Source: Acidimicrobiia bacterium (lineage in GTDB: Bacteria; Actinomycetota; Acidimicrobiia; Acidimicrobiales; SZUA-35). Taken from it: a stretch of 33,306 nucleotides of DNA. The notes under the pieces were generated by a model that searched no databases, had not been told where the DNA came from, and saw only the letters and a program-made list of their open reading frames with translations. Below, piece by piece: positions 22,442-26,694 of the stretch; positions within the stretch are counted from its first letter, which is position 1; every line of letters begins with the position of its first letter. Both the position numbers and the translations under genes were made by a program. The stretch is taken from the NCBI GenBank assembly GCA_003231975.1, contig QIKW01000163.1, forward strand, positions 1-33,306, given 5' to 3'.

Positions 22442-23994
22442 GAGTCCACCTCGACTCGCAGCCCAAGAAGCTTCGGATTGTTCCCAGCCATTCTGGCAAT
22501 CAGGGCAAGGGCTGGCCGCATGAAGAGGTAAGAAACGAACAAGTCGAGCAGCGTTGCCACTCCCAGGTAGAAGGCGAAGCCCCGAACGGCGCCAACGGTT
22601 AGGAAATAGAGAAGTCCGGCGGCGATCAGGCTTACGATGTCTGCCTTCAAAATGGTGCTTATCGAGGATTCGTAGGCTCGCTCAATGGCGGTTGGAATGC
22701 GACGGCCCTGAGAAATGGACTCTTTGACGTTTTCAAAATACACAATGTTCGAGTCTGCCGATACGCCGATGGCAACCGTGAGGCCCACCAGGCCTGCCAA
22801 CGAGATGGCGAGGCCCTGGTTGGCTCCGAACCAGGCAATGATGGTCCACAACATGAGGCCCGATAGCACCAGGCCCATGATTGCCACCAACCCCGAGAGC
22901 CGATAGTAAGCCAAGAGATAGACGCCGACCAGGGCGAGGCCGATCAACCCGGCGGTTGCGCCCGACCGAAGAATGTCGTCGCCGATTGTTGCCGAAACCG
23001 TGCGTGTGGCCTGAGCCTCGAGCTCTACCGGAAGGGCACCGAACTTGAGGGCGGTGTTCAGGTCTCGAGCCTCGTCTTCGGTGAACGAGCCGGAGATCAC
23101 TATCCGGTCTCTTTCGAAGGCGGGAGCGTTGATGGATGGAGCCGAGATCACCTCACGATCCAACACAATTGCCAGTTGTCGGGTTGGGCAGGCTGGGGTG
23201 GCGTTGAAGCAAAGCTCGGCTACCGCGTTGAAGGCCCCGATGCCCTCATCGCCCGCCTTGAACACCGGATTCACTCCCCATTCCCGGGTATCGAAGCTGA
23301 CCTCGGATGTCTCGAGGGTTTCACCGGTCAGCAAGGTTGGCCCGAGGCAGGCAACACCGCCGTCTCTCATTGGCAACAGCACAAACGCTTCGGCGAAGTC
23401 ATCTTCAGGCCTGGTTAGCTGGCCCGAGCAAGCTGTTTCGGCACCCAGCTGAAACGAATCGACTGGCGGAACCTGAGATTCGGCCGGATCTTCGTCTGTG
23501 CCGTCGCCCGTGCCCTGACGGCGACGCAGCGGACCAAGCCCTTCTTCGTCTGAGCCTGGGGTGCCTTCGGTTTGCGATGCATCTGGCTCTTCGCCCAACG
23601 GGTCGTTCCCGATGAGGTCGTCGATGTTGAACTCACCTGTTGGCGTCGGGAACGGTAGGAGCGGCCTGAAACGAAGCTCTGCTGTCTGGCCGATCAGCTG
23701 GAGAGCGCGTTGCTGCTCTTCAACACCTGGAAGATCAACAACGATTGTGCCGCCTTGACGGGAGATCTCGGGCTCGGCCACACCGAGGGCGTCGACGCGC
23801 GCTCGGATGATTTCAACCGTTTGGTCAAGGGCATCATCATCGGCGACCGACGTTGGTTGGTAGACCACCGAAACCCCACCTTGGAGGTCAAGGCCCAGGA
23901 GCGGCTCATTACCAACCGCCAGGGTGTACCCAAAACCGCCGACGGCCACCAACACCACAAAGAGCGCCGACAGCACGTGCTTTTGGTTCATCAA
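22438..23994 (-). CDS. secD: protein translocase subunit SecD with acidic linker
   Basis: The 518-residue protein has an N-terminal membrane helix (about 8-27), then the LLGLDLQGGVSVVYQP motif, the external P1 domain, and five C-terminal membrane helices with GLVGLTVAIGVSADSNIVYFE and SLIAAGLLYFLTVGAVRGFA typical of SecD. Residues about 118-178 form an unusual low-complexity acidic segment (for example GEEPDASQTEGTPGSDEEG) inserted in the external region. Four cysteines occur in the following part. The ATG start overlaps the yajC stop by 4 bases. It is part of the yajC-secD-secF operon. Confidence 0.96.
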   Translation of the reverse strand: MMNQKHVLSALFVVLVAVGGFGYTLAVGNEPLLGLDLQGGVSVVYQPTSVADDDALDQTVEIIRARVDALGVAEPEISRQGGTIVVDLPGVEEQQRALQLIGQTAELRFRPLLPFPTPTGEFNIDDLIGNDPLGEEPDASQTEGTPGSDEEGLGPLRRRQGTGDGTDEDPAESQVPPVDSFQLGAETACSGQLTRPEDDFAEAFVLLPMRDGGVACLGPTLLTGETLETSEVSFDTREWGVNPVFKAGDEGIGAFNAVAELCFNATPACPTRQLAIVLDREVISAPSINAPAFERDRIVISGSFTEDEARDLNTALKFGALPVELEAQATRTVSATIGDDILRSGATAGLIGLALVGVYLLAYYRLSGLVAIMGLVLSGLMLWTIIAWFGANQGLAISLAGLVGLTVAIGVSADSNIVYFENVKESISQGRRIPTAIERAYESSISTILKADIVSLIAAGLLYFLTVGAVRGFAFYLGVATLLDLFVSYLFMRPALALIARMAGNNPKLLGLRVEVDS

Positions 23995-24437
23995 TCCTTC
24001 GATTCGGTCACGGTGTCGTCAGGCCCAGACCCCGGGTCTCCGAACAGGTCGTCGTCGGGGTCATCGTCATCGTCATCACGGTCATCATCATCATGATCGT
24101 CAGGGCCATCATCAGCGTCATCGTCGTCGCGGTCATCGTCGTCGCGGTCATCGTCGTCGTCATCGTCACGGTCATCATCGCCATCATCATCGATGATTTT
24201 CGAGGCCACGGAGCCGCGGCCCACCTTCAACTCAACGCCATCAGCTACCTCCACCCAAATGATCTCGTCGTCGACGCTGCTGACAAACCCGTGAATCCCA
24301 GAGCTGAGAACGATCTCGTCGCCTTCCTGAACGCTGGCGATCAACTCACGGGCCTGCTTCGCCTGACGTTGCTGGGGGCGAATCAGCAACAGGTACATAA
24401 TTACAAAGATGAACGCGAAGGGAATTAATGCTTCCAT
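23991..24437 (-). CDS. yajC: YajC, Sec accessory protein with polyaspartate tail
   Basis: YajC is the small accessory subunit of the SecDF-YajC complex. The first 80 residues are standard: one membrane helix at about 4-19 (LIPFAFIFVIMYLLLI), then the family signature RPQQRQAKQ, and a soluble domain with EGDEIVLSSGIHGFVSSV. After residue 82 comes an extra tail. Residues 83-130 hold about 38 aspartates, broken by single Arg, His, Gly, Ala and Pro residues, followed by a short end DTVTESKD. Total length 148 compares with about 100-115 for most family members. By E. coli topology the tail faces the cytoplasm. A weak GGAAG lies 7 bases before the ATG, and two palindromes lie directly upstream. Confidence 0.93.
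   Translation of the reverse strand: MEALIPFAFIFVIMYLLLIRPQQRQAKQARELIASVQEGDEIVLSSGIHGFVSSVDDEIIWVEVADGVELKVGRGSVASKIIDDDGDDDRDDDDDDDRDDDDRDDDDADDGPDDHDDDDRDDDDDDPDDDLFGDPGSGPDDTVTESKD
24048..24191. repeat. GAC/GAT codon microsatellite encoding polyaspartate
   Basis: The plus strand is a run of GTC/ATC trinucleotides over about 144 bases, which the minus strand reads as Asp codons in yajC. Codon choice alternates irregularly between GAC and GAT and is broken by CGT/CGC (Arg) codons. It looks like trinucleotide expansion that has since been mutated and kept in frame. The opposite strand reads open as well, but this is a by-product. Confidence 0.9.
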
Positions 24438-24572: not shown

Positions 24573-25679
24573 CTAAGCCCAGTCGGCCAATACTTTCTGC
24601 CTGAACGACTGGAAGGTGCCCTGTTGAATCGACAGCCTCATCTGTGCCGTGAACTCAGCCAACCAGGCGAGATTGTGCAGCGTGATGATGCGGCCTGCGG
24701 TGAGTTCGTTGGTGTTGAGCAGGTGGCGGACATAGGCCCGGCTGAAGCGACTAGACAGAGGGTGATCGAAGTTTGGATCTATTGGTTGCTCGTCTGAGCG
24801 GAAACGCAGGTTCTTTAGGTTGAGGCGGCCTTCGCCGCTAAGCGCGGTGCCGTGACGGGCTAAACGGGTTGGGAGCACACAGTCGAACATGTCGATGCCG
24901 TTGGCAACTGCTTCGACCAGACCAACAGGATCGCCCAGCCCCATAAAATAGCGGGGCTTGTCTGCCGGGAGGCAGGCAGTTGCCGCCGCCAGAGCCGGAA
25001 TCATTTCGCTTCTGTCTTCGCCAACCGACAACCCCCCAACCGCATACCCGTCAAAACCAACCTCCACCGTTCCCTTGGCAGACTCGGCCCGTAGTTCCGG
25101 GCTCACTCCGCCCTGAACAATTCCGAACTGAGCCTGTCCTTGGCGAGAGTGGGCGGCCTTTGATCGATTCGCCCATTGCAGCGTCAAGTCGACGGCTCGG
25201 CGCTGCACGTCTGGTTCGCTTGGCAAAGCAGGGCACACATCAAGCACCATTGCAATGTCGGCGCCAAGTTGTTCCTGGATCCTCACCGACCGCTCGGGCG
25301 TTAGGTGAACCGCCGACCCGTCGTACACAGATTTAAACGTTGCCCCGTCTTCACTGATCTTTGGTCGCAGCGAAAAGATCTGATAACCACCAGAATCTGT
25401 CAGCAGATGGCCAGACCAGTCCATGAACCGGTGGAGGCCGCCCATCTGTTCAACTAGGTCGGCACCGGGGCGCTCCATGAGGTGGTAGGTGTTTGCCAAA
25501 ACGATGGGGGCGTCAAGCCGTTCGAGGTCTCCGGTATCGAGAGTCTTTACTGCCGCCCTGGTTCCAACTGGCATGAACACCGGCGTTTCGATGACGCCCC
25601 GACTCGTTGTAATCAGCCCTGCCCTGGCGTCACCGTCTGTTGTCTCAACAACCATCGAGATGGGGCCGGGATCGGTCAC
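24573..25679 (-). CDS. tgt: queuine/preQ1 tRNA-ribosyltransferase lacking zinc cysteines
   Basis: Tgt swaps guanine 34 of GUN-anticodon tRNAs for preQ1 (or queuine). The 368-residue protein keeps the catalytic aspartates Asp95 in LLTDSGGYQIFSL and Asp266 in MFDCVLPTR, as well as GGLSVGE. Cys149 and Val219 correspond to residues typical of bacterial, preQ1-using enzymes. The zinc site is degenerate: where the family has CxCxxC just before the SRAY motif, this protein has FDHPLS (residues 304-309) before SRFSRAYVRHL. The fourth ligand, His335 in ITLHNL, remains. Start: GTG at 25679, with ATG at residue 9 as the alternative. A TAGCCT box lies 7 bases before the GTG. It follows queA by 10 bases and works in the same pathway. 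Confidence 0.93.
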   Translation of the reverse strand: MTDPGPISMVVETTDGDARAGLITTSRGVIETPVFMPVGTRAAVKTLDTGDLERLDAPIVLANTYHLMERPGADLVEQMGGLHRFMDWSGHLLTDSGGYQIFSLRPKISEDGATFKSVYDGSAVHLTPERSVRIQEQLGADIAMVLDVCPALPSEPDVQRRAVDLTLQWANRSKAAHSRQGQAQFGIVQGGVSPELRAESAKGTVEVGFDGYAVGGLSVGEDRSEMIPALAAATACLPADKPRYFMGLGDPVGLVEAVANGIDMFDCVLPTRLARHGTALSGEGRLNLKNLRFRSDEQPIDPNFDHPLSSRFSRAYVRHLLNTNELTAGRIITLHNLAWLAEFTAQMRLSIQQGTFQSFRQKVLADWA

Positions 25680-25686
25680 GGATGCG

Positions 25687-25692
25687 AGGCTA
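25687..25692 (-). promoter_or_regulatory. possible -10 box for leaderless tgt
   Basis: TAGCCT is followed by 7 bases and the GTG of tgt. It overlaps the stop codon of queA (the TAG itself), which lowers its weight because the stop codon supplies half the match by chance. Confidence 0.3.
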
Positions 25693-26694
25693 ACTTGTGC
25701 GCCGGGTTACCAGCATGGCGTCGCCGAAGCTCAGGAATCGATAACCGTCGGCCAGCGCCAATTCGTACAGGTCTCGCCAGCGGCTGCCAATGAACGCGTC
25801 GACCATTACCAACAGGGAACTTCGGGGAACGTGAAAGTTGGTCAGCAGCACGTCAACTACCTGCCAACCGAAGCCCCTATGAATGAACAGTTCTGTCCGA
25901 TCCGTTAGTCGACCCGTAGTGGCGGCCGCCTCCAACGTTCTGACGGTGGTGGTACCAATGGCAACCACTCGCTTGGCTGCCTGCACCTTTGCCCAAACCT
26001 CAGCCGAGACCGAGTAGGTCTCGCCGTGCATCTGATGGTCAAGGACAGAATCGGAGCTGATTGGCCTGAAGGTTCCAAGCCCAACCCTCAGGTCAACCGA
26101 AACAACCTCAATTTGGCGTTGCACCAGTGCCTGCAGCACCCGATTTGTGAGATGCAGGCCAGCGGTTGGCGCGGCAACCGAGCCGGCAACATTGGCATAA
26201 ACGGTTTGGTATCGATCTGGGTTGGTCAAGGACTTCGTGATGTATGGCGGCAACGGCACCTGGCCTGCGCGTTCAACAAGATCCTGGGCCAGTAGGCGAA
26301 TAACGCGGCGGCCGTCCGGCAATTCGCCAACAACCTCAACCGCGGGCTGAGCCTCCCATTCCAGTACCGCTCCGATCTTCAGCCTCTTGCCGGGCCGCAC
26401 CAGGGCCTGCCACTCGCAGGGATTGCCCGTTGGTTCAAGAAGCAGCACCTCAACTGCCCCTCCTGTCTGTTTGCGCAGGCTGAGCCGGGCCGGCAAAACC
26501 TTTGTGTCGTTGACCACCACCAGGTCCCCGGGTTCCAGCAGGTCGGCCAGACCGGCCACACGATGGTGGCTTGGCGGGTCCCCGTCAACCAACAGCCGAG
26601 CCGCATCTCGCGGTTCGGCAGGCACTTGGCCAATGGCAGAGTCTGGCAGCGAATACTGGAACGCCGAAGCGTCCGGAAACTGGGGCCGAGGCAT
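25690..26694 (-). CDS. queA: S-adenosylmethionine:tRNA ribosyltransferase-isomerase
   Basis: QueA transfers and rearranges the ribosyl part of SAM onto preQ1-tRNA to give epoxyqueuosine, the step after Tgt. The 334-residue protein has DLVVVNDTKVLPARL near the N-terminus, VPLPPYI, SVAAPTAGLHLT, the signature VGLGTFRPI, HGETYSVS, VVAIGTTTVRTLE and the C-terminal LLTNFHVPRSSLLVMVDAF with GYRFLSFGDAML. All are typical and the length is normal. The ATG is preceded by TGAGG at about 10 bases. It lies 12 bases after ruvB. No genes for preQ1 synthesis are in the window. Confidence 0.96.
   Translation of the reverse strand: MPRPQFPDASAFQYSLPDSAIGQVPAEPRDAARLLVDGDPPSHHRVAGLADLLEPGDLVVVNDTKVLPARLSLRKQTGGAVEVLLLEPTGNPCEWQALVRPGKRLKIGAVLEWEAQPAVEVVGELPDGRRVIRLLAQDLVERAGQVPLPPYITKSLTNPDRYQTVYANVAGSVAAPTAGLHLTNRVLQALVQRQIEVVSVDLRVGLGTFRPISSDSVLDHQMHGETYSVSAEVWAKVQAAKRVVAIGTTTVRTLEAAATTGRLTDRTELFIHRGFGWQVVDVLLTNFHVPRSSLLVMVDAFIGSRWRDLYELALADGYRFLSFGDAMLVTRRTS

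Follow-up and report, generated by a model that had tools for sequence, protein, structure and literature searches.

A tgt gene without the zinc cysteine triad

The window analysed here is a stretch of 33,306 nucleotides from an Acidimicrobiales bacterium (GenBank assembly GCA_003231975.1, contig QIKW01000163.1). On its minus strand lies tgt (24573..25679), which encodes a tRNA-guanine(34) transglycosylase (Tgt) of 368 residues. The protein matches TIGR00430 with 422.9 bits, passing the equivalog cut-off of 306.75, and PF01702 with 454 bits, and it fails both archaeal models (TgtA, 128.5 bits against a cut-off of 350; ArcS, 18.2 bits against 440). It is the sole Tgt of its genome, a 3.71 Mb draft in 275 contigs that is 95% complete.

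Directly upstream of tgt lies queA (25690..26694, minus strand; NF001140, 355 bits; PF02547, 348 bits), which encodes the next step of queuosine synthesis, and yajC (23991..24437, minus strand; PF02699) is the conserved downstream neighbour. The assignments agree with synteny, as queA lies upstream and yajC downstream of tgt in most relatives, triad-less and normal alike. The yajC product carries a long Asp/Arg-rich repetitive tail (DDDGDDDRDDDDDDDRDDDD...) past the YajC domain (residues 4–78), and the DNA of this tail is a degenerate GTCATC-type repeat.

The structural zinc site of bacterial Tgt, formed by a CxCxxC motif and a histidine, is incomplete in the window protein, in which the histidine is the only ligand left. 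Specifically, residues 304–309 (24753..24770, minus strand) read FDHPLS, and alignment to the E. coli motif C302-D-C304-Y-T-C307 places F304, H306 and S309 at the positions of C302, C304 and C307, respectively. A preliminary description of this DNA had reported FDHPLS where CxCxxC is expected; the minus-strand codons (TTC GAT CAC CCT CTG TCT) and the alignment bear this out, and the loss of the motif is a real, confirmed observation. The zinc site is usually called a hallmark of the family, yet the TIGR00430 family model does not need it. The alignment likewise supports the retention of the former fourth ligand, His335 (24675..24677, minus strand; E. coli His333), and of both catalytic aspartates, the nucleophile Asp266 (24882..24884, minus strand; Z. 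mobilis Asp280) and the acid/base Asp95 (25395..25397, minus strand; Z. mobilis Asp102). One helical turn before His335 sits Ile331 (24687..24689, minus strand; E. coli Leu329), which comparison among Tgts marks as a candidate compensating change.

Conserved residues and predicted structure

In an alignment of 51 diverse Tgts, the columns of the catalytic pair D95 and D266 and of the base-recognition residues D147, C149, G216 and E221 in the substrate pocket are invariant, and that of Gln189 is at least 90% conserved. All 63 triad-less Tgts collected from Acidimicrobiales keep Asp89, Asp143, Asp264, an aromatic residue at 310, Tyr314, His317 and His333 (E. coli numbers). The dimer hot spot of Z. 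mobilis Tgt, composed of Trp326, Tyr330 and His333 (PMC5395182), corresponds to Phe312, Tyr316 and His319 in the window Tgt, and the three positions are aromatic, Tyr and His, respectively, in 63/63 of the same set. Purifying selection on the gene is strong, with a dN/dS of about 0.07–0.10 in two comparisons with unsaturated dS. Together with the conserved queA-tgt-yajC order, this value upholds the earlier judgement that decay is unlikely.

The AlphaFold2 model of the window Tgt comprises the whole TIM-barrel Tgt fold, including the C-terminal subdomain. Because AlphaFold is blind to metals and its alignment is rich in zinc Tgts, the model supports fold compatibility only, and its confidence (pLDDT of 93.9 overall and 88 over residues 301–310) and its superposition on T. 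maritima Tgt (2ash; 1.2 Å over 360 residues, Z score of 53.7) and Z. mobilis Tgt (1pud; 1.4 Å over 365 residues) are to be read in that sense.

Loss of the triad is a clade trait in Acidimicrobiales

Of 39 genomes in the family of the window, 37 encode a Tgt, and the triad is absent in all 31 of these proteins that were read, the usual pattern being PIDPxFxHPLSxRYSRAY. The Tgt of a congener, 81% identical to the window Tgt, carries an identical FDHPLS. An even draw of 118 genomes across the order yielded a Tgt in 93, and these, pooled with the family set, comprise 63 proteins without and 54 with the triad. By hand count, 16 of the 46 sampled Acidimicrobiales families are triad-less and none is mixed; triad-less families other than that of the window show FxxSPAxR, LxxSPxxR and similar patterns. 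The loss is therefore a clade trait, as the preliminary description had proposed to check among Acidimicrobiia, and a sequencing error, which it had also considered, is contradicted by the congener and by the lack of any same-family Tgt with CxCxxC (0/31).

A tree computed with the motif columns removed fits better when the core triad-less Acidimicrobiales rows are held together (log-likelihood higher by 58.6, p-AU of 0.97), so a single old loss can explain this core. A small lineage (rows L037 and L198) needs its own, separate loss.

Residues that take the place of the zinc site

Relocated Cys or His ligands were sought across the triad-less Acidimicrobiales Tgts, and no consistent gain was found; in particular, the alignment of these proteins reveals no Cys ligands at another place in the same fold. 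The number of cysteines per protein falls from mostly 6–7 to mostly 2–3 in the triad-less group, and the commonest that are left, C149 and C267, are common to Tgts generally.

The replacing residues follow a pattern. The first Cys position is occupied by Phe in 46/63 triad-less Acidimicrobiales Tgts and otherwise by Leu, Trp or Val, while the third is occupied by Ser, Ala or Thr. The residue before the third position is Leu or Pro in 53/63, whereas it is mostly Val or Thr in normal Tgts. Furthermore, E. coli position 329, normally Leu, is Ile in 52/89 triad-less versus 0/240 triad-bearing Tgts of a sample spanning several phyla, in which some of the Ile329 rows have an unusual amino-acid composition. 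The carriers belong to Acidimicrobiales, several alphaproteobacterial lines and one Planctomycete. Independent pairs on supported branches number 2–4 concordant and 0 discordant, too few for significance; these comparisons of sequences are suggestive, but not proof, of Ile329 as a change that compensates for zinc loss. L354F (E. coli numbering), another candidate in Acidimicrobiales, was dropped, since Phe is frequent at this position in normal Tgts elsewhere.

Recurrent loss in other bacteria

The same sample, which is no census and of which one set was chosen by similarity to the window Tgt, yielded a combined tree of 329 Tgts (FastTree, motif columns removed), in which the 89 triad-less rows need about 20 changes, at least 8 of them forced by well-supported branches. 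Among Alphaproteobacteria, sampled evenly, the triad is absent in 12/69 Tgts, mostly with Ser in place of the first and the third Cys, and the His is also lost in 4 of these 12. The triad is absent as well in some Planctomycetota, one Verrucomicrobium and one Beijerinckiaceae. In two Tgts, one from an Acholeplasmataceae and one from a small genome (L055 and L051), all four zinc ligands have been lost, His included, and the loop is one residue shorter.

The queuosine pathway of the host

QueG is encoded in the same genome (contig 79; 226 bits against a cut-off of 200). In this 95% complete draft, QueH and QueF were sought and not found, and the only match to QueC lies in a frame that was read by eye as TilS. 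By the rule given in PMC10570037, such a set of Que genes is a preQ1-salvage genotype, and given that neither QueC nor QueF was detected the host probably imports or salvages preQ1; alternatively, de novo genes may lie in the missing 5% of the draft.

QueF is unevenly distributed within the family of the window, occurring in 19/39 genomes, including one congener. Across Acidimicrobiales, the strong QueF type (>95 bits) is found mostly in zinc-Tgt genomes. A lower-scoring QueF-like group (L210–L214 and L218–L220; 38–82 bits) keeps motifs such as CPVTxQPD and ESKSLKLYL. We do not claim a tie between zinc loss and QueF loss, since weaker QueF-motif proteins also occur in triad-less genomes and QueF loss is patchy.

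Interpretation

The window protein probably functions as an ordinary, catalytically active Tgt without metal, its structural zinc having been lost, a reading to which conserved residues and the predicted fold both point. The loop that once wrapped the zinc would now be held by the packing of an aromatic or aliphatic side chain in place of the first Cys, a Leu or Pro at 308, a small side chain in place of the third Cys and, on the facing helix turn, Ile331. His335, we guess, may be kept for packing or for a hydrogen bond. The enzyme would still insert preQ1 in place of guanine 34 in tRNAs with a GUN anticodon, and QueA and QueG would then turn the preQ1-tRNA into queuosine. Folding without metal had been among the readings offered earlier and is the best of them, as the triad is gone, no substitute ligands were consistently gained and a Tgt fold is predicted. 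Against it, the conservation of His335 in all 63 triad-less Acidimicrobiales Tgts needs another role to explain it, and mutagenesis of the E. coli ligands (Chong et al. 1995, as cited in PMC9508795) suggests that zinc matters in the E. coli enzyme.

A different metal site could instead exist in the family of the window, with His306 and His335 as ligands of zinc or another metal and Asp305 or Ser309 perhaps contributing. His306 is indeed present in most of the family and His335 in all of it. Position 306, however, is Thr in two family members and is occupied by Ala, Glu, Asn and other residues in sister families with fold and context unchanged; position 305 is unconstrained (D, R, S, A, Q, E, T, V, K), and no further ligand was gained. 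Since His306 (30/63 triad-less Acidimicrobiales Tgts) is practically limited to the family of the window and one neighbour, and position 305 is free to vary, such a site cannot be general, and the earlier suggestion that His306 holds a different metal finds no support; even within the family we consider it improbable. We give equally little credence to a changed role, in which the protein would make no queuosine with preQ1 but act on another base or another RNA, or be purely structural. The loss of a supposedly required zinc site and the failure to find QueC and QueF in the draft would fit such a role, which the preliminary description had also raised, but the catalytic aspartates and the substrate pocket show no change, the gene lies next to queA in a genome that also encodes QueG, the gene block is common to triad-less and normal relatives, and the eukaryotic subunit QTRT2 shows the opposite pattern, with catalysis lost and the zinc domain kept (PMC6165067). 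That the gene is an incipient pseudogene or its site misassembled or misread is a notion that the draft state of the genome (275 contigs) might encourage; with an intact reading frame, the low dN/dS, FDHPLS shared with the congener and the triad lost across 31 family members from independent assemblies, its probability is close to negligible.

A related question is why a metal-free Tgt would have been favoured. Selection by zinc scarcity or thiol oxidation, that is, for zinc saving or oxidant resistance, would fit the recurrent loss of the triad in unrelated lineages, the report for the queuosine pathway of a second queD copy predicted to be under the zinc regulator Zur (PMC9508795), and one Verrucomicrobium genome (G158) that has two Tgts, one triad-less and one with CxCxxC (L199 and L206). 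The same pattern would also arise by neutral drift once a stabilising change had occurred, however, and we regard such selection as rather unlikely. As for the metal-free Tgt itself, a broader proposal can be put forward at low confidence: that it is widespread and evolved repeatedly by a partly repeatable route, with a hydrophobic residue plugging the place of the first Cys and Ile one turn ahead of the retained His, and that selection favoured it for making queuosine synthesis independent of zinc supply or of thiol oxidation.

Relation to known systems

The triad-less Tgt is a variant of a well-known enzyme and no new kind of system. It shares with bacterial Tgt (TIGR00430/PF01702; 1pud, 2ash) the fold, the catalytic Asp pair, the substrate pocket, the dimer hot spot, the fourth-ligand His and the queA neighbourhood, and differs from it in having F, H and S for the zinc cysteines, such that a zinc site of the known type cannot form. 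With the eukaryotic queuine transglycosylase QTRT1/QTRT2 it shares the superfamily and the TIM-barrel fold; in contrast to the window Tgt, which keeps the catalytic residues and has lost the zinc site, neither eukaryotic subunit, not even the non-catalytic QTRT2, has lost its zinc domain. The zinc residues of Tgt have been called highly conserved (PMC4425180), and a 2022 paper (PMC9508795), one of those citing the E. coli ligand mutagenesis, states that zinc is required for activity. The literature searched, which excluded most papers in subscription journals and the annotation rules of databases, yielded no account of a Tgt that naturally lacks zinc.

Judging from the loss of the triad in a large Acidimicrobiales group and repeatedly in other bacteria, with the residues for chemistry kept, zinc appears to be dispensable in Tgt. 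With natural Tgts that miss just the zinc ligands, the question of whether the enzyme needs the metal can be put to a direct test, and such proteins would show how packing can replace a structural zinc. They also make CxCxxC an unsafe annotation mark of a working Tgt, and they are relevant to the connection that has been proposed between queuosine and the supply of metals.

In Cys-less (C-) ribosomal proteins, as in other zinc proteins that have a zinc-independent version, structural Cys ligands are replaced while fold and function are kept. By analogy, the structural Cys ligands of Tgt are replaced and its function is kept as proposed here. Unlike the C- ribosomal proteins, which are second copies made under zinc stress, the triad-less Tgt is mostly the sole copy in its genome: a second Tgt is absent in 6 of 7 checked triad-less genomes, taken from the similarity-picked set. 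Separately, a relative of the same family, whose draft genome is 8% contaminated, contains a second, divergent Tgt-like match of 36% identity (G001:C818:6751-7767).
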